Below, in pieces: positions 22,302 through 30,637 of a DNA stretch of 64,000 bases (the first letter of the stretch is position 1; each line of letters begins with the position of its first letter). Made by a program: the position numbers and the translations under genes. Below the pieces are notes generated by a model that made no database searches, was not told the origin of the DNA, and saw only the letters and a program-made list of their open reading frames with translations. Origin of the DNA: Verrucomicrobiota bacterium (GTDB taxonomy: Bacteria; Verrucomicrobiota; Verrucomicrobiia; Limisphaerales; JADLHS01); NCBI GenBank assembly GCA_029573725.1, contig JAKQDQ010000181.1:372001-436000 (forward strand), written 5' to 3'.

Positions 22302-22907
22302 TCCAAATCACTTCCTTTCCGCGAGCGGTCGGCGCATGGGCCGGGCGCTCGAAAGCTGGTCGTCAAGCATGGTTTTTTCAGACGGCCAGGTCAATCGGCA
22401 AAAATGAAAATGCGGAAAAGACGATGCAGCGGGAGGGCGAATTCGCCTGGCCGGCCCGCATCAAGCGCAAGTTCTGGAAACGCGCGCCGGTCGAAAACCC
22501 GGGAGGAATCGCGGTTTGGCGTCTTGGTTCCCCGGGGCGGGAAATTGATCCAAGTCAAGAAGATGTCGTAATGAGGGATAATGGGATATTGACATCCTAT
22601 TATGCCCCCATAGTCTGGCGCGGTGAAATTCAATTTGCACCACGTTCGCTCTCGCGGGCACAAAGCGAGGCGTTTGGTGCGTGAAGCACGGCCGATCCAC
22701 CGGGCCAGTTCTCCAATCGCCATCAACGCGTGTGGCGCGGATGTGTGGGTGGGGCGGTGTGTTGCACAATGAAGAATTCCGCATGAACAGGCTGATGGTC
22801 ATCATCATGGGTTGGGCGCGCCGGGGCGGTTTGGCGCGTCGCAAAGAGGGTGGCGGGCCGTGGATCCGTGCGGTAATGCCGGTAACCAACCTCAACCCCC
22901 TGAATAC
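22302..22907. other. Intergenic stretch, 606 bases, holding the nor promoter and a long leader
   Basis: No convincing gene. The first half should hold the rpsU promoter (minus) and contains the FNR-like box and promoter of the nor operon (listed separately). From the predicted transcription start near 22623 a leader of about 285 bases precedes the first nor gene at 22908. A 76-codon open frame at 22681-22911 is Arg/Gly-rich, unlike a real protein. Such a long leader could hide a regulatory RNA structure, but I see no recognisable one. Confidence 0.5.
22545..22616 (+). promoter_or_regulatory. FNR/Dnr-like box and promoter of the norCB operon
   Basis: TTGATCCAAGTCAA (22545-22558) matches the FNR-family consensus TTGAT-N4-ATCAA at nine of ten positions. 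TTGACA at 22589-22594 and TAGTCT at 22611-22616, 16 bases apart, make a plausible sigma-70 promoter. The box centre would be near -71 from a start at about 22623, a class I activator position. Nearly the same module recurs at 26019-26089. Confidence 0.65.
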
Positions 22908-23186
22908 ATGACACGAATTGTTGATTGGACGCTTGCGGTGCTGGGCAGTGCGGCAGGTTTTGCCCTGTCGTGGCCCTTTTGGCGGGATTTCGAATATTTT
23001 GCCGAATCGCGCGATTTTTGGTGGATCTATTTCGTTGTGGGCTATTTGCTGGCGGTTTACGTGTTTTACGTGTTCATCGCCTGCACCCGCATGTTGTTCC
23101 TCCATGACCACTTGATCAAAACCGGGGAGATCGAACCCGGCCCGGCTTTGGAGGAGACCGAAACCGACAAGAAAGGAAAGAAATGA
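22908..23186 (+). CDS. Small membrane protein preceding norC
   Basis: 92 residues from the ATG at 22908 (MTRIVDWTLAVLG). Two membrane helices are evident, about 7-22 and 38-58 (WWIYFVVGYLLAVYVFYVFI), followed by a charged cytoplasmic tail ending EETETDKKGKK. It overlaps norC by the ATGA start/stop, so translation is coupled. I do not recognise a family. Its position as first gene of the operon suggests an assembly factor or small accessory subunit of the nitric oxide reductase, which is inference. Confidence 0.7.
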   Translation: MTRIVDWTLAVLGSAAGFALSWPFWRDFEYFAESRDFWWIYFVVGYLLAVYVFYVFIACTRMLFLHDHLIKTGEIEPGPALEETETDKKGKK

Positions 23187-24157
23187 GCTGTCCAGGAGGA
23201 ATTTGCAAAGAACCCGGCAAGCGCCTGCGGGCGCTCATCATGTTGGGTTTGATGATGCTGGTGTTCATCGTGCTCTCCGGTTTTTCGTTCTTGGGGTCGA
23301 GAAACCAGGTGACGCCGGACGAGATCACTTTTGGAACGCACTACGCCACGGATGGGAAGAAAATCTTTCAAGCCTACAACTGCATGGACTGTCATACGAT
23401 TGTGGGCAACGGCGCTTATCTGGGACCGGATCTCACCAAGAAGTACGCCGCCCTCGGACCGGCCTGGCTGGCGGCGTTTCTGCCCTCGGCCAACATGTGG
23501 CCCACCGAGTTTGCCGTTCAAACGCAGTTGAAGGACAAGGACATCGCGGCGGATGCCGGCGTGGACACCATCGAAGCTTACTACGAGAAATATCCGGAGG
23601 CGAAGGAGCGGGTGCAGCGGCGCGGAGGCAAACCTACCTACATGCCGACGCTGCGGTTCCGGGCCGGGGAAGTTTCGCAGTTGATCGCATTTTTGAAATA
23701 TACGTCGGCGATGAACACCGAAGGTTGGCCGCCCAAGGTCATGACGGGCAGCCTGGAACATCGCCTGGAACTGCTGCACGGTCGCGTTGCCGGCAGCGCG
23801 GCCGCCACGCCGGCCGGCAGTTCCTCCGCCCCAGGGGCCGCCACATCTGCAGGCGGAGGCGCGGGCGGAGCGGTGGAGCGCGGGGCGCAGTTGGCCCAGA
23901 CGCTCGGATGCGCGGCGTGTCATTCAACGGACGGCAAGAAAATCACTGGTCCAACGTGGAAGGGAATTTACGGCAGCCACGAGAAATTGGTGGGCGGCGG
24001 TACCGCCACCGTGGATGACGCTTACATCATCGAGTCCATCCTCAAGCCAAACGCCAAGGTGGTGGAAGGTTATCCGGAAGGCACCATGCCGCCCTACGAA
24101 GGTTTGGTCACCGATGAACAGATCCAGGACCTCATCGCCTACATCAAAACCCTCTAA
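23183..24157 (+). CDS. norC: Diheme cytochrome c subunit of nitric oxide reductase (NorC fused to a second cytochrome c)
   Basis: 324 residues, about twice a classical NorC. One membrane anchor (about 17-37) precedes a NorC-type domain with heme site C67-M-D-C70-H71 and axial-ligand candidate M144 in PTYMPTLRF. An Ala/Gly/Ser-rich linker (about 202-222) leads to a second cytochrome c domain with C233-A-A-C236-H237 and M292 in GTMPPYEG, like the domain found at the end of cytochrome oxidase subunit II. It should pass electrons from periplasmic donors to NorB. The ribosome site GGAAAG lies before the ATG. Confidence 0.88.
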   Translation: MSCPGGICKEPGKRLRALIMLGLMMLVFIVLSGFSFLGSRNQVTPDEITFGTHYATDGKKIFQAYNCMDCHTIVGNGAYLGPDLTKKYAALGPAWLAAFLPSANMWPTEFAVQTQLKDKDIAADAGVDTIEAYYEKYPEAKERVQRRGGKPTYMPTLRFRAGEVSQLIAFLKYTSAMNTEGWPPKVMTGSLEHRLELLHGRVAGSAAATPAGSSSAPGAATSAGGGAGGAVERGAQLAQTLGCAACHSTDGKKITGPTWKGIYGSHEKLVGGGTATVDDAYIIESILKPNAKVVEGYPEGTMPPYEGLVTDEQIQDLIAYIKTL

Positions 24158-24162
24158 GCACC

Positions 24163-25881
24163 GTGATACAACCAAAATACCAAACTCAACGTTTGAGCAT
24201 GCGATTTTTCATGCTCATGCTCATCCTGTTTTTTGTGCAAGTCGGCCTGGGATTGCTCCTGGCCCTGCAGCATAATGACCCCACGTTGCTCGCCGGCACG
24301 CTGAACTTCAACGTCGTGCGTTCAACCCACCTCAATCTGGGACTGATTTGGATTCTCAGCGGTTTTATTGGCTCCATCCTGTATGTCGGGCCGCTGCTGT
24401 CGAAGCGCGAGCTGGCGTCGCCCTGGTTGATTAAATTCCTGTTTTACGCCGTGGTGGCGGTCACCCTCTGGAACGTGGGCACCCAAAGCCTGGCCATGCA
24501 GGGCAGTGCGGGCTGGTGGGCCGGCCAGCCTTGGTTGCAGGAGGGCTTGGAGTACATCGAAGGCGGGCGGGTCTTTGACGTGATTGTTTTGATCGGCTTT
24601 GCCATTCTTTGCTACGTCGTTCTGCGCACCTTCCCCAAAGTGCGCGAGTGGAATGAAATTCACTGGGGCCTGGGCTTGGGCGTCGTGGCGCTCACTGTTG
24701 TCTGGCTGTTTGGCATGTTTTACGTGCCGCGGGTGGATTTGCAGGAATACTTCCGCTGGTTCGTGGTGCACTACTGGGTGGAAGGGGTTTGGGAGGTCAT
24801 TCACATCAGCCTGGTGGGAATTTTGATCGTTCTGCTGTTCAAGGTGAGCGTGAAGGAAGTGGGCTACGCGGTGTTCTGGGGCATTTTGCTCGTGTGGCTG
24901 TCGGGATTGCTCGGCAACGCCCACCATTATTTTTGGGTGGGCACGCCGGAATTCTGGCAATTCTGGGGCTCCCTCTTCAGCGCGCTGGAGCCGCTCCCGA
25001 TGATATTCTGTTTCTGGCATATTTATCTGGATGCTCACGCGAATCGCAAGCCGCTGGAAAATGCCCCGGCATTTTACTTCATCCTTGGCTCCGTGGTTCT
25101 GGAGCAGGTGGGGGCGGGGATTCTGGGCTTCACCATGACCTTTGCTTTGACCAATGTCTGGTCGCACGGAACGTGGGTGACTCCGGCGCACGGCCACCTG
25201 GCGTTGTTCGGTACGTTTGGCCTGCTGGTCCTCGGCGCGGCGTATTATGCCGTGCCCATGTTGCGCCGGGGCAAACCGGGCGACTTCGATCAGCGCCTCG
25301 GCCGGCTGGGATTCTGGCTGGTGTTTTCCGGCATCATCGGACTGGCGCTGGCCTTTGCGTTGGGCGGCACGGTGCAGGTTTATATCAGCCGTATCCTGGG
25401 TTTCGAGTGGTTGAGTGGCGATTTGATGCCTTCCATGAACCTCTACAAAGTTCTCGTGGTTTCATTTGGTTTTGTCCTGACCGTGGGGGCGGGGGTGATT
25501 GTTTATGACTTGTGTACGCTCGGCCGGCAGACGGAACGCACGAAAGCCACGGAACCCGCCCCGGCTCAAATCCCGGCGCGCCCGGCCACGGGCTGGAGCC
25601 GTCCGCTTACCGGATTCGAGGCTGGCACCTGGTTGATGGGCATGTGGATCTTTGGCTTCATCGTCACGTTCAACCTCCTGAGCTACAACCTGGATATTGT
25701 GCGCGTGCATGGTGATCCGACCCTGCCGTACGTGCTGGCGGGGATTGGCTATCCGGGTTTATTCCTGACGACCCTGTTGTTTGTGTGGCGTTTCCTGGCC
25801 TCGATGGAAGCGCGGGTGGCTGAGGCGGCACTAAGTCCGGCGCCCAATCCGGCAGCGGTCGGGGGGGGCGGCCGGGCCTGA
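24163..25881 (+). CDS. norB: Nitric oxide reductase large subunit
   Basis: 572 residues with about 12 membrane helices. It has the quinol/cytochrome NOR active-site set: H56 (RSTHLNLG) and H345 as heme b ligands, H203 with E207 (HYWVEGVWEVIH), H254-H255 (GNAHHYFWVG) for the non-heme iron, E276 in ALEPLPM, and H343 (TPAHGHLALFG) for heme b3. The Glu residues replace the Tyr of oxygen-reducing relatives, supporting NO reduction to N2O. The GTG start at 24163 gives the usual KYQTQR lead-in. The linker near 455-490 is Pro/Ala-rich. A terminator follows. Confidence 0.95.
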   Translation: MIQPKYQTQRLSMRFFMLMLILFFVQVGLGLLLALQHNDPTLLAGTLNFNVVRSTHLNLGLIWILSGFIGSILYVGPLLSKRELASPWLIKFLFYAVVAVTLWNVGTQSLAMQGSAGWWAGQPWLQEGLEYIEGGRVFDVIVLIGFAILCYVVLRTFPKVREWNEIHWGLGLGVVALTVVWLFGMFYVPRVDLQEYFRWFVVHYWVEGVWEVIHISLVGILIVLLFKVSVKEVGYAVFWGILLVWLSGLLGNAHHYFWVGTPEFWQFWGSLFSALEPLPMIFCFWHIYLDAHANRKPLENAPAFYFILGSVVLEQVGAGILGFTMTFALTNVWSHGTWVTPAHGHLALFGTFGLLVLGAAYYAVPMLRRGKPGDFDQRLGRLGFWLVFSGIIGLALAFALGGTVQVYISRILGFEWLSGDLMPSMNLYKVLVVSFGFVLTVGAGVIVYDLCTLGRQTERTKATEPAPAQIPARPATGWSRPLTGFEAGTWLMGMWIFGFIVTFNLLSYNLDIVRVHGDPTLPYVLAGIGYPGLFLTTLLFVWRFLASMEARVAEAALSPAPNPAAVGGGGRA

Positions 25882-25909
25882 CCCGCGCACGGAATGAGTG
25901 GCATTCGTC

Positions 25910-25948
25910 AACACTGCTGGGGCCTGCTCCCGGCAGTGTTTTCTTTTG
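25910..25948 (+). terminator. Intrinsic terminator after norB
   Basis: AACACTGCTGGG (25910-25921) pairs with CCCGGCAGTGTT (25929-25940) with one mismatch; TTCTTTTG follows. It separates the norCB unit from the next one, which has its own FNR-like promoter. Confidence 0.75.
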
Positions 25949-26018
25949 GCGCAGCGGACGCTTTACCGTTGAGCCGGCCGACGGCGAGGACGTAAGTGGT
26001 TGCGGATGCTTGGGGCAT

Positions 26019-26089
26019 TTGATTTGAGTCAAACTTCGGGTGATCCCGGACGAACCGGACATTGACATCCGGTTGTTCGCTTCTACGCT
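26019..26089 (+). promoter_or_regulatory. Second FNR/Dnr-like box and promoter
   Basis: TTGATTTGAGTCAA (26019-26032) is again an FNR-family box. TTGACA at 26062-26067 and TACGCT at 26084-26089 are 16 bases apart. Box-to-hexamer distance differs by one base from the module before norCB, and TTGACATCC is identical in both. The predicted start near 26097 leaves a leader of about 78 bases. Confidence 0.65.
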
Positions 26090-26173: not shown

Positions 26174-27040
26174 ATGAACACGTCCCTCCCCAGTTCTGCC
26201 GCCACCAGTGATCCGCATCGTGATCCAAAGGTGGTTTTTGACGTTCGTCCCATCCCCGGCCGGGTGAAACACGCGCAGATTTTTCAACGCTGGCTGGATT
26301 TGCCGCTCAATGGATTTTTTGTCTTGTTGAACGACCATGATCCCGTGCCGCTGCGCTATCAGTTCGAGCGCGAATTTCCACAAGCCTTTACGTGGGAATA
26401 CCTCGAACGTGGCCCGGAGGAGTTCCGCGTGAAAATCACCAAACTGCGCCATGCCATTGCGCCGGAAACGATGCCGCGAGGGTGTGGGACGGGCAGCCAT
26501 GGCGCGGATCCCAACCGTGATCCCCGGGTCGTTTTTGATGTGCGCCCCATTCCCGGCCGCGTGAAACACGCGCAAATTTTCCAGCGCTGGCTCGATCTGC
26601 CGGTGGGCAAGTTTTTCGTGCTGCTCAATGACCATGATCCCGTGCCGCTGCGCTATCAATTCGAACACGAATTTCCCGAAGCCTTCTCCTGGGAATACCT
26701 GGAGCAGGGGCCGGAAGAGTTCCGGGTTAAAATCACCAAGCTCAAAGCTGTGCATGCTCCCGAAACCACGCCGCAAGGTTGCGGTTCATCCGCTCCGGCC
26801 CCGGCGGTTCGGACGGTGGCGGCAGACGTGCAGGAGATTGACGTGCGCGGCTTGGAACCGCCGGAACCGCTCGTCCGCGTGTTGGACGCGTTGGAAGCCC
26901 TGCCGGCCGGCCAGAAGCTGCGCGCCCATACCGATCGTGAACCGTGCCACTTGTTCGGCGAAGCCAAACAACGCGGCTTCAACACGGACTGCACGCAACA
27001 GCCTGATGGCAGTTGGATTACGGTGCTGACCCGTGCCTGA
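26174..27040 (+). CDS. Protein with two near-identical DUF2249 repeats and a third SirA/DUF2249-like domain
   Basis: 288 residues. Repeat one (about 13-104) and repeat two (112-203) are offset by exactly 99 residues and share RVKHAQIFQRWLDLP, LLNDHDPVPLRYQFE and EEFRVKITKL; each ends in GCG. The third domain (about 218-288) starts EIDVRGLEPPEPLVRVLDAL, as in TusA/SirA-like and DUF2249 proteins, with a Cys in EPCHLF. DUF2249 proteins often accompany NO and nitrite respiration genes, and LNDHDP with its His/Asp is their hallmark. A heme-related or electron-transfer role is possible but unproven. Confidence 0.82.
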   Translation: MNTSLPSSAATSDPHRDPKVVFDVRPIPGRVKHAQIFQRWLDLPLNGFFVLLNDHDPVPLRYQFEREFPQAFTWEYLERGPEEFRVKITKLRHAIAPETMPRGCGTGSHGADPNRDPRVVFDVRPIPGRVKHAQIFQRWLDLPVGKFFVLLNDHDPVPLRYQFEHEFPEAFSWEYLEQGPEEFRVKITKLKAVHAPETTPQGCGSSAPAPAVRTVAADVQEIDVRGLEPPEPLVRVLDALEALPAGQKLRAHTDREPCHLFGEAKQRGFNTDCTQQPDGSWITVLTRA

Positions 27041-28412
27041 ACCCGGTTCCCATCCGTCCCCGGCCGCCGCCCCGCGACCGGCCAGCAAACAAAGCTGGCT
27101 GGCCGCGCAGGGCCGGTTGCCGCTGGCGTTCATGGGGCTGGCGCTGATTTGGTTGTTGGTGGCGACCACGTTGCTGGTGGCACATCCCGGACTGCTGGGG
27201 ATGCCACACGCCGCGCCGCCGGTGATTGCGTTGACCCACAGTTGGATGCTGGGCTTTTTCGTTACGGTGGCCTGCGGTGCCGTCTATCAACTTGTGCCGG
27301 TGGCTTTGACCACCACGCTGTGGAAGGAAAACCTGGGATGGTGGCACTTCTGGCTGCATGCGGTCGGAGTTCCCGGCATGGTGTTTTTTTTCCAAAGTTA
27401 CCAGTTGAAATGGGTCGCGCTTTTCGCCACGGCAGTGATTTTGGGGGTGCTGTTGTTCACGGTGAACACTTGGGTCACGGTGGGGCGCTCAACCCGTCGC
27501 GATGTGGTGGCTTGGGCGATCATTCTCGCCGCCGGCTGGTTGTGTCTGGCGGTGTTGGCGGGGTTGTTTCTGGCGTTGAACCGGCTGTTCACTTGGGTGC
27601 CGGTTGCGCCACTGGCCTTGTTGCGGATGCACGCCCATCTGGGATTGATCGGCTTCTTTCTGGCCCTGCTGCAAGGAGTGGCGTTTCAACTGATTCCCAT
27701 GTTCACCATGGGTGAAGTGCGGGATTGGGGGCCGGCGAAAGCCGGGCTCTGGTTTTCCCAAGCCGGACTGGTCGCTCTGGTGCCGGCGTTGATCTGGCAG
27801 TGGGCGGTGCTGACCTATCTCGGTGCGGTGGCGGTGACGATCGGCCTCGTGTTTTCTGGCTACGGCCTGCAGCAATCCCTGACCACGCGCAAAAAGCGCA
27901 AGTTGGATCCGGGCATTGCCGTGTTTCTTCGCGGGGGGATTGGGATTTACGCGGCCGCCCTGGCCGGCATCGCCTTGACGCTTCCTGACTCAACGCGGAG
28001 TACCGCCGTCGGCGGGTTTAATCCCATGATATATGCGCTGCTTGGCATTCTGGGCGGGTTGATGCCGTGCATTGCGGGCATGATGTGCAAGGTGGTGCCT
28101 TTTCTGACCTGGATGCGGGTTTACGGTCCGCTTGTGGGGCGGCGACCGACGCCACCCGCACATTCGCTGACGCATCCGCGCCTGGAATACTGGGGGCTGG
28201 GATTGCAACAATTTGCCGTGCTGCCGTTGCTGGTGGGCGCCTGGTGGTCCAGTCAGCTTTGGCTGCATTTGGGAGCCTGGCTTCTGGCGGTGGGCGTCGT
28301 GTTGTTTCTCGCCGACATGGTGGGGGTGATGAAACATTTGTGGCTGCCTGCCACCGCCCCGGCGCCGGGCCCGGCGCTCAAACCGAAACTAACCGCATCG
28401 CAAACCAAATGA
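27033..28412 (+). CDS. Polytopic membrane protein, heme-copper oxidase subunit I / NnrS-like
   Basis: 459 residues with about 12 membrane helices. It starts at a GTG overlapping the previous gene by 8 bases. Two segments recall heme-binding helices of heme-copper oxidase-like proteins: LTHSWMLGFFVTVACGAVYQ and RMHAHLGLIGFFLALLQGV, each with His followed by Gly-Phe and a Gln-Leu-x-Pro exit. It lacks the NorB catalytic His-His and Glu set, so it is not a second NO reductase. Position suggests a heme-binding partner of the DUF2249 protein in NO handling; I infer this from context only. Confidence 0.65.
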   Translation: MPEPGSHPSPAAAPRPASKQSWLAAQGRLPLAFMGLALIWLLVATTLLVAHPGLLGMPHAAPPVIALTHSWMLGFFVTVACGAVYQLVPVALTTTLWKENLGWWHFWLHAVGVPGMVFFFQSYQLKWVALFATAVILGVLLFTVNTWVTVGRSTRRDVVAWAIILAAGWLCLAVLAGLFLALNRLFTWVPVAPLALLRMHAHLGLIGFFLALLQGVAFQLIPMFTMGEVRDWGPAKAGLWFSQAGLVALVPALIWQWAVLTYLGAVAVTIGLVFSGYGLQQSLTTRKKRKLDPGIAVFLRGGIGIYAAALAGIALTLPDSTRSTAVGGFNPMIYALLGILGGLMPCIAGMMCKVVPFLTWMRVYGPLVGRRPTPPAHSLTHPRLEYWGLGLQQFAVLPLLVGAWWSSQLWLHLGAWLLAVGVVLFLADMVGVMKHLWLPATAPAPGPALKPKLTASQTK

Positions 28413-28714
28413 ATGTAACTCCCGAAACTGCCGCCGTGTGGGACGCGCTGAAAACCATTCCCGATCCCGAATTTGGTCTCAACATTGTGGACATGGGACT
28501 GATCTACAGTGTGGAGAACCAGGATGGCAACATCGCTGTGACGATGACGCTCACCACGGAAAACTGCCCGTCCGGCGAGTGGATTTACGAAGGCGTCAAG
28601 ACGGCGCTGAACGCCCTGCCTGAGGCCAGGAACGTTGAGGTCACCATGACGTTCGATCCGCACTGGACGCCCGACATGCTCAGCGAAGACGGCAAACGTC
28701 AGTTGGGAATGTAA
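28409..28714 (+). CDS. DUF59/MIP18-family metal-sulfur cluster assembly protein
   Basis: 101 residues from the ATG at 28409, which overlaps the preceding stop as ATGA. The family core is clear: ALKTIPDPEFGLNIVDMGLI at the start, VTMTLTTENCPSGEWI with the conserved Cys, and VTMTFDPHWTPDMLSEDGK. Members (PaaD, SufT, MIP18) help mature Fe-S proteins. As last gene of an FNR-box-controlled unit it may repair or deliver clusters under nitrosative stress, when NO destroys Fe-S centres. Confidence 0.85.
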   Translation: MNVTPETAAVWDALKTIPDPEFGLNIVDMGLIYSVENQDGNIAVTMTLTTENCPSGEWIYEGVKTALNALPEARNVEVTMTFDPHWTPDMLSEDGKRQLGM

Positions 28715-28735: not shown

Positions 28736-30094
28736 CTACACGGTTACGGCCTTGGGGCGGCGCAGACTCGCGCGCAGGGCCACGGCAAACGCGGCGATCG
28801 CGCCCCAGCCGCACAACCCGGCGACCGGGAACAGGCGGTCGGTCCAGTTGACTCCGCTGAAATCCTCTGGGGAAAACAGGGCCGGGACAATGCGGAGCAA
28901 GGTGGCCAGATTGGCCAGCAGGAGGGCGCTCCACATCAGGCCGCGCGCTCGTGGCCGTCCCCCGCCAAATCCGGGCAGCATTTTCCAGCCGACGGACAGG
29001 ATCAGCAGCGTCATGAAACCTGCCCCCAGCGCGTGACGGGGCAGATTGTTTTGTCCGAGTGACGGCGGAATGGGCAGCCCGAACTGTTGCAGGGCGATGA
29101 GGAGGAGAAAGAGCGCCGCCATCAGACACCAGACGTACGCACAGACGACCCCGATGGCCGCAGGATCCTCCCAGAGGCGATAGGGGGCCGCGGGATGGGA
29201 AGTGGGTTTGCGCGGATGAAAAATCCGCACCGCAAAAATTCCACAGCCCAGTCCGCCCGCCCGGCACAGAGCCGCCCCTCCTGTGAACGCGGGGCTGCTG
29301 CCGGAAAGCGCGGAGCGGGCGGCCTCCAGCAGGGTGAAGATCAGTCCAAGCGCCAGTAAGCCAGCGGCGCTCTGCAAGCCCGGTGAACTCGCGAGCTTGG
29401 TGCGAAAGGTCAGCGGGAACAGGCGCGCGGACATGCCGATCGAGACGGCGGCGATAAATCCGAACAACATCAGATCCGCAGCGAGCCACGAAGGCCGGGA
29501 GGCCAGCAGGGCGAGAGTGGCGCCGGTTACGAGAGGTTCTACCGTCGCAACGCACCAGGCCAGTTGTGCCAGGAGCAGCGCGATTCCGGCCACCCCCAGC
29601 AACGGGAGGATTTGGCGAAAGCCTTCATTTTGTTTGAGCGGCCGGCCGGAGCGAAACGTAATGGTCAGGAGCAGAAGGAGACCAACGACACCAATCGTCT
29701 GTGCGCCGACGCCGCCTGCAACGACCGCGTTCAACCAACGGACTTTGCCGGCTGGTCCGGCGGGGGCAAGCGCGGCGAGCCACCACTGACCGACCATGCG
29801 CAAAACCAGTCCGAGCGCCAGTCCTCCGAACAGGGCTGCGGCCCATTCGGGGCGGTGCAATTTGACCGCGCGAAGACGGGGCAAAAAATGGAGAGCAACG
29901 CCCAGGATCATCGCGCCGCCCCAGCCCATCATCAGCGCGACGGAGTGGATCTGGAGGCTGGCCAGATAGCACCATCCACGTGGCAGGGCGAACCACCACG
30001 CCCCAGTCATCCACGCCGCCAGGCCAAAACCCGGCACCAGTGCGCAGATCAACGCCAGCCGGACGAAGCGCAACCAGAGCCGGTCGGGGTTCAT
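28736..30094 (-). CDS. NnrS-like polytopic membrane protein
   Basis: 452 residues, about 12 membrane helices, converging on the DUF59 gene 21 bases away. Segments such as QIHSVALMMGWGGAMILGVA with FLPR after it, and RHALGAGFMTLLILSVGWKM, have the His-rich, Gly-rich helix pattern of NnrS proteins, heme- and copper-containing membrane proteins that relieve NO stress. Assignment is by pattern and neighbourhood; the family is diverse. The Rrf2 regulator gene lies 78 bases upstream on the same strand. Confidence 0.65.
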   Translation of the reverse strand: MNPDRLWLRFVRLALICALVPGFGLAAWMTGAWWFALPRGWCYLASLQIHSVALMMGWGGAMILGVALHFLPRLRAVKLHRPEWAAALFGGLALGLVLRMVGQWWLAALAPAGPAGKVRWLNAVVAGGVGAQTIGVVGLLLLLTITFRSGRPLKQNEGFRQILPLLGVAGIALLLAQLAWCVATVEPLVTGATLALLASRPSWLAADLMLFGFIAAVSIGMSARLFPLTFRTKLASSPGLQSAAGLLALGLIFTLLEAARSALSGSSPAFTGGAALCRAGGLGCGIFAVRIFHPRKPTSHPAAPYRLWEDPAAIGVVCAYVWCLMAALFLLLIALQQFGLPIPPSLGQNNLPRHALGAGFMTLLILSVGWKMLPGFGGGRPRARGLMWSALLLANLATLLRIVPALFSPEDFSGVNWTDRLFPVAGLCGWGAIAAFAVALRASLRRPKAVTV

Positions 30095-30172: not shown

Positions 30173-30637
30173 TCAACGGCCGGTTGGGGCTGCCGGTTTG
30201 CCAGGTTTCAATTTGATGCCCAGCGGTACCGAGGCCGAGTCGGTGTTCAGCAGGTCCACCAGTTTGGATTGCGCGAACGTCGCTTCCATTTGGGCCGCCA
30301 CGTCGTCCATGCCGCGATGCAGCGGGCAGAGCTTGTGCGCGTGTTCCTTCAATCCCAGGGGGCAGGCCAGGATGCGTTCCAGCGGGTCCACGGCGTTGAT
30401 GACTTCCAAAACGGAAACCTTTGCGGGATCGCTGGCGAATTGAAAGCCGCCGCCCAGTCCGCGTTGACTGCGCACCAGTCCGGCCTTGGTCAACAATTGC
30501 AGCACCTTCAAGGTGTAATCCGGCGGGGTGCGCGTGCCGGCGGCGATCTGCCGCGCGGTCTGTGAACGGGCGGGCTCCTGGAGCAACCAGAGAATGGCGC
30601 GTAAGGCGTATTCAGCCGTGCGTGAAATCAATTGCAC
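30173..30637 (-). CDS. Rrf2-family transcriptional regulator (NsrR/IscR-like)
   Basis: 154 residues from a GTG at 30637 (MQLISRTAEYALRA, the typical Rrf2 opening). The winged helix includes TPPDYTLKVLQLLTKAGLV and SQRGLGGGF. The cluster-binding loop has only two cysteines, C92 and C104, with His residues around them (CPLGLKEHAHKLC); classical NsrR and IscR have three. The protein may bind an Fe-S cluster with a His or outside ligand, or another cofactor. The neighbouring NnrS-like and nor genes make nitrosative stress its likely signal. Confidence 0.85.
   Translation of the reverse strand: MQLISRTAEYALRAILWLLQEPARSQTARQIAAGTRTPPDYTLKVLQLLTKAGLVRSQRGLGGGFQFASDPAKVSVLEVINAVDPLERILACPLGLKEHAHKLCPLHRGMDDVAAQMEATFAQSKLVDLLNTDSASVPLGIKLKPGKPAAPTGR

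Follow-up and report, generated by a model that had tools for sequence, protein, structure and literature searches.

Background

Promoters that pair a DNR site, placed upstream, with a site for an Rrf2-family regulator further downstream have been described before in other denitrifying bacteria. In beta-proteobacteria the norB, nirK, COG4309-norB and nnrS2 genes are preceded by an upstream DNR site and a downstream NsrR site, and NsrR regulons of other bacteria include ytfE (dnrN) and nnrS, to which some lineages add norB (Rodionov et al. 2005, PMC1274295). The locus described here lies in a 64,000-nucleotide stretch of DNA from a Verrucomicrobiota bacterium ("the window"), and it resembles the beta-proteobacterial system in the order of sites before the nor genes as well as in the target set (nor, nnrS, ytfE/dnrN), but differs from it in three respects: the predicted operator (AAtNGGAYATTGACATCCNaTT rather than gATGyAT-N5-ATrCATc), the Rrf2 protein, which is not NsrR according to the family model, and the DNR box, which is predicted to lie at class I and not at class II distance. 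Enterobacterial hcp-hcr, controlled by FNR and NsrR (PMC1274295), likewise has an FNR-type box upstream and an Rrf2-family operator downstream, whereas its target and operator sequence are different. FNR class I promoters of Escherichia coli are centred at -61.5 or -71.5 (PMC6343905); the centres predicted here from the promoter hexamers (-70.5, -71.5 and -72.5) are similar, but an extra dyad covers the -35. Finally, DNR of Pseudomonas aeruginosa is the best solved match of our Crp/FNR candidate, and its FNR-like box and nor target are those predicted for the candidate as well, although the candidate gene is found about 60 kb from nor and the half-site GTCAA replaces ATCAA. What appears to be new, judging from sequence, is the operator, the non-NsrR clade of Rrf2 proteins and the predicted class I DNR box in this group, a placement for which we found no description in the open-access literature.

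Architecture of the norC and DUF2249 promoters

The initial annotation reported two FNR-like boxes, TTGATCCAAGTCAA and TTGATTTGAGTCAA, each located some 37 bases 5' of the same TTGACATCC, which a 16-base gap separates from a -10-like hexamer; this put both boxes near -71. These measurements were reproduced (Table 1): the 9-mer is identical in both promoters, the box and TTGACA are separated by 30 bases before norC and 29 before the DUF2249 gene (37.5 and 36.5 from the box centre), the 16-base spacer is present in both, and the box centres are predicted at -71.5 and -70.5 (-72.5 for norC in a related genome, G039) if transcription starts 7 bases past the -10. Across these promoters the distance from box to TTGACATCC varies by single bases (29, 30, 31). 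TTGAY-N4-RTCAA fits both boxes without a mismatch, while from the strict palindrome TTGAT-N4-ATCAA they depart at one position (half-site GTCAA). The window contains two such exact boxes where shuffling predicts 0.18. A genome-wide search for the composite, as proposed in the initial annotation, found the box with TTGACA within 20–45 bases at two places in the entire 4.28 Mb genome, namely norC and DUF2249; the relaxed box TTGANNNNNNTCAA with TTGACA gave the same two places alone, and the reversed-pattern control of the composite gave no matches in the whole genome. We rejected a class II placement for either box: at DUF2249 there is no -10 at 21–22 bases, and at norC the sequence GATAAT is off register at 18 bases. 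The string GTGAANTTC, common to both promoters just 3' of the -10 hexamers, is not kept in G039 and was deemed a chance similarity.

Table 1. Genes and predicted regulatory sites of the nor cluster and other promoter-placed boxes of the genome (window positions; C73 and C30 are contigs of the same assembly)
Feature	Position	Strand	Remark
FNR/DNR-type box TTGATCCAAGTCAA, norC promoter	22545..22558	+	centre ~-71.5; position kept in G039 norC promoter
Dyad AATGGGATATTGACATCCTATT, norC promoter	22580..22601	+	spans -35; proposed Rrf2 operator
-35 TTGACA, norC promoter	22589..22594	+	
-10-like TAGTCT, norC promoter	22611..22616	+	16-base spacer
Small membrane protein (92 aa), 5' of norC	22908..23186	+	homologues at the same place in other nor loci
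norC-like cytochrome c subunit of nitric oxide reductase	23183..24157	+	extra C-terminal cytochrome c domain
norB, catalytic subunit of cytochrome c-type nitric oxide reductase	24163..25881	+	
FNR/DNR-type box TTGATTTGAGTCAA, DUF2249 promoter	26019..26032	+	centre ~-70.5
Dyad AACCGGACATTGACATCCGGTT, DUF2249 promoter	26053..26074	+	spans -35; proposed Rrf2 operator
-35 TTGACA, DUF2249 promoter	26062..26067	+	
-10-like TACGCT, DUF2249 promoter	26084..26089	+	16-base spacer
DUF2249 repeats fused to TusA-like domain	26174..27040	+	
Multi-span membrane protein, DUF2249 unit	27033..28412	+	weak COX1 (heme-copper) match
FeS_assembly_P (MIP18/SufT-like) protein	28370..28714	+	last of DUF2249 unit
NnrS-like membrane protein	28736..30094	-	under Pfam cut-off; downstream of Rrf2 gene
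Rrf2-family regulator	30173..30637	-	proposed binder of the two -35 dyads; Cys92 and Cys104
Box, type II DMSO-reductase/nitrate-reductase-like operon	C73:468,446		identical letters to norC box; 21 bases to TATTCT
Box, hemerythrin gene	C30:11,382		22 bases to CAGACT
Box, second DUF2249-TusA gene	C30:1,057		22 bases to CAGAGT

A dyad over the -35 hexamer

The initial annotation took the common box, spacing and -35 as a sign of one Crp/FNR-type activator of norCB and the DUF2249 unit. It overlooked that the shared element exceeds the -35 hexamer, and that GGAYATTGACATCC lies inside a 22-bp dyad. Dyads of this kind precede norC, DUF2249 and ytfE/RIC genes, in six promoters of four genomes, and align to the consensus AAtNGGAYATTGACATCCNaTT; in all six, GGAYATTGACATCC is followed by a 16-base spacer (counted from TTGACA) and TANNNT. 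The best inverted-repeat register coincides with the centre of the motif in every one of them (8, 8, 8, 8, 6 and 7 of 11 pairs). Four pairs directly flank the identical core in each site, and of these 24 pairs 18 are complementary, where within-site shuffling yields 10.0 (p 0.0001, a value that overstates independence, the six dyads representing three orthologous promoter classes and not six independent events). Every site scores at least 26 bits with a model trained without its own promoter class, and in 144 kb of this genome the two sites of the window alone score over 8 bits with the full dyad model.

Outside the window, promoter-placed dyads were found in three genomes of the order. G039 is the one other genome among 320 with close norCB genes; in its norC promoter TTGATTTAAGTCAA is separated by 31 bases from TTGACATCC, which is part of GGATATTGACATCC, and TAACGT stands 16 bases past TTGACA. 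The Rrf2 gene of G039 and norC are divergently transcribed, and the region between them contains the dyad. The G039 DUF2249 promoter has GGATATTGACATCC with the same spacing and no FNR box. In G004, a genome of the same genus, and in G261, the element is found between an Rrf2 gene and the divergent ytfE/RIC gene (iron-centre repair), some 11–12 bases 5' of the Rrf2 start codon; here too TTGACA and a 16-base spacer lead to TATCGT or TATTGT, and no FNR box was seen in either ytfE promoter. Thus, the box is absent from three of the six dyad promoters.

A search for GGAYATTGACATCC in the 320 genomes of the order returned 48 matches in 40 genomes, and all but about a dozen of the matches were inspected; those inspected are coding except the six promoters, and the coding ones often correspond to HHPDIDIRWN of pterin dehydratase or to other DIDI codons. 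A general GGAYATTGACATCC regulon in the order was rejected: of 30 further loci, all but the one from G004 (L169) are in reading frames, the G261 promoter having been added after this set. The reversed-pattern controls for this search and for the list of boxes are weak, because reversed letters hold stop codons or lose the codon bias.

These comparisons bear on the view that the regulon is defined by a single Crp/FNR activator and that TTGACATCC is a mere shared -35 with an extension. The box, the spacing and the -35 are indeed common to both promoters of the window and to norC of G039. Yet the 14-bp element and the dyad arms are kept in the three promoters without an FNR box, the other three DNR-box promoters of the genome, all of class II, lack the element, and the element tracks an Rrf2 gene (see below); we therefore regard a single activator as unlikely. 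Of the original proposal, the FNR/DNR-type activator stands, by the boxes and a DNR-like gene, while the shared -35 as its sign does not, because the dyad also occurs without an FNR box and goes with the Rrf2 regulator gene. In the alignment the shared -35 sequence is the core of a separate dyad and no evidence for an FNR-type activator. The case carries a caution: where two promoters share their -35 letter for letter, that sequence can serve as operator for a second regulator rather than mark one activator. It is very unlikely that the two promoters, 3.5 kb apart in one cluster, are alike through recent copying of one from the other, with no shared control: box and dyad are conserved but the intervening 29–30 bases up to the -35 differ, ytfE promoters of other genomes carry this dyad too, and G039 keeps it in both promoters though the flanks have diverged. 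The module thus probably comprises two sites for two regulators, with one candidate regulator gene in the window.

The Rrf2-family regulator

This candidate, missed by the initial annotation, is an Rrf2-family protein. The profiles PF02082 (92.9 bits over the whole protein, cut-off 30) and TIGR00738 (95.7 bits, cut-off 73.3) identify the family, while the NsrR model NF008240 gives 32.8 bits, far under its cut-off of 182. Two cluster cysteines are present (Cys92 and Cys104; the G039 protein has 92, 104 and 108), and the middle one of NsrR's three is missing from the window protein; we take its expected position, as in IscR/NsrR, to be near 98. The NsrR operator gATGyAT-N5-ATrCATc (PMC1274295) is not matched, the sites here reading GGAYAT-TG-ACATCC with AAT/ATT arms.

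Close orthologues (72–83%) were found in three other genomes of the 320, i.e. G039, G004 and G261, and the four genomes with such a protein are exactly those in which promoter-placed dyads were found. In three of the four, Rrf2 and either ytfE or norC are transcribed divergently with the dyad in between, and the neighbourhood is of the NO type in all of them: ytfE in G004 and G261, norC in G039 and the NnrS-like gene in the window. The dyad could be a real operator of a regulator other than this Rrf2 protein, since there is no dyad before the Rrf2 gene of the window and distant Rrf2 homologues come without it. Against this, the orthologue and the promoter dyad co-occur in the same 4 of 320 genomes, and the dyad is found between Rrf2 and ytfE in two genomes and between Rrf2 and norC in one, which makes another binder improbable.

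More distant Rrf2 homologues (46–52%) also adjoin ytfE/RIC, with other upstream sequences, and no operator matching the dyad was found near distant homologues (46–63%). In G496 an inverted repeat, GGATCTATATATCC (L205 1995–2008), precedes a 49%-identical Rrf2 gene; it is possibly a diverged operator, too weak to use.

Crp/FNR regulators and FNR-type boxes

Scanning of the window revealed no Crp/FNR gene, as the initial annotation had stated, and the suggested search for a Dnr/NnrR-like gene turned up two clear Crp/FNR genes elsewhere in the genome (completeness 96%), at about C73:456,822–457,538 and C149:58,240–59,016. The former is on the same contig as the window, 20.8 kb past its end and about 60 kb from nor. 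Its product carries PF00027 and PF13545, corresponding to a cNMP-binding-like sensor and a Crp-type HTH, and its best solved match is DNR of P. aeruginosa (3dkw, E 2.5e-26), by far the best among characterised regulators (FNR-type regulators: E near 1e-14). Both proteins have an E-x-x-S-R recognition helix, which in the C73 protein reads E-T-F-S-R (ETFSR). We suggest the C73 gene as the best candidate for the DNR-like activator; the genome encodes two DNR-like proteins, and the boxes alone do not tell which of them acts.

Exact TTGAY-N4-RTCAA sites occur at 27 distinct places in the whole genome. Five are placed in promoters, all five 5' of nitrogen-oxide genes, and the remaining ones fall in or across reading frames. 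Besides the two of the window, which alone have a predicted class I layout, these are the boxes of the nar-like operon, the hemerythrin gene and the second DUF2249 gene (Table 1), with a class II layout (21–22 bases to a -10-like hexamer and no -35) and no GGAYATTGACATCC-type element. Across 70 norB loci from other bacteria, the density of exact boxes in the norC promoter slot is 23 times that elsewhere, in line with control of nor by DNR (PMC1274295). An FNR/DNR-type activator at the norC and DUF2249 promoters is well supported by these sites.

The nar-like operon (C73:459,207–468,558, minus strand; L029 3207–12558), with its DNR box at class II distance, encodes a TAT-signal molybdopterin subunit, an FeS subunit, a Nar-type chaperone and a cytochrome c/heme b fusion. 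At the two C30 class II promoters (positions 1057 and 11382) the -10-like hexamers are very near the ATG, which suggests transcripts with very short leaders or none.

Predicted regulation

We consider it likely that the norCB and DUF2249 operons have sigma-70-type promoters served by a DNR-like activator at about -71 and an Rrf2 regulator over the -35. Behind this model stand the observed sites, how they are spaced and conserved, their restriction to nitrogen-oxide genes and the joint occurrence of the dyad and the Rrf2 gene. The DNR-like Crp/FNR protein would bind the TTGAT-N4-GTCAA box and contact RNA polymerase from the class I position, while the Rrf2 protein would bind the 22-bp dyad and so cover the -35 hexamer. 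We infer which protein binds which site, as well as the sign of the Rrf2 control and NO as the signal. The Rrf2 protein is probably an NO-relieved repressor, because its site covers the -35 and by analogy with NsrR; repression would be lifted by NO or its products, following an NsrR-like logic. On this view nor would be expressed only when DNR activates it and NO has lifted the repression, and the Rrf2 regulator would control ytfE of G004 and G261 with no part for DNR. NsrR of Magnetospirillum, an Rrf2-family NO sensor bound over the -35 of mamH, has been reported to act as an activator (PMC11014258), so that the sign may be either. More tentatively, these Rrf2 proteins may form an NO-responsive clade of their own that takes the place of NsrR, marked by two or re-placed cluster cysteines and a distinct 22-bp operator; in every case this operator lies over the -35 of a promoter with a 16-bp spacer, and the protein could be a repressor or an NO-controlled activator of a suboptimal promoter.

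The model describes an NO regulon open to direct testing in a genome that does not belong to the well-studied proteobacteria, names candidates for both regulators and both operators, and supplies a new predicted operator sequence of an Rrf2 clade with which NO regulons may be located in related genomes.

Genes of the cluster and its relatives

The NorC-like subunit has a low-complexity linker before its extra cytochrome c domain, and the layout in G039 is identical. NorB is 76% identical to a protein from a Phycisphaerales MAG and 74% to those from Rhodanobacter-type MAGs. No other of the 320 genomes of the order has a full-length close NorB homologue (E <= 1e-100), the G039 copy ending at a contig end. 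Such relationships suggest that the nor cluster may have spread horizontally.

The DUF2249 protein of the window, whose family we take to be the same as COG4309, has at least two tandem DUF2249 repeats. In other genomes of the order the DUF2249 and TusA-like pieces are separate genes about 2 kb apart. In several DUF2249 loci of other genomes in the order (L136, L137, L141, L142, L146, L153 and L156), the space between divergent genes contains two FNR-type boxes some 55 bases from each other, and on the side of each box a -10-like hexamer follows at about 22 bases, an arrangement that looks like back-to-back class II promoters.
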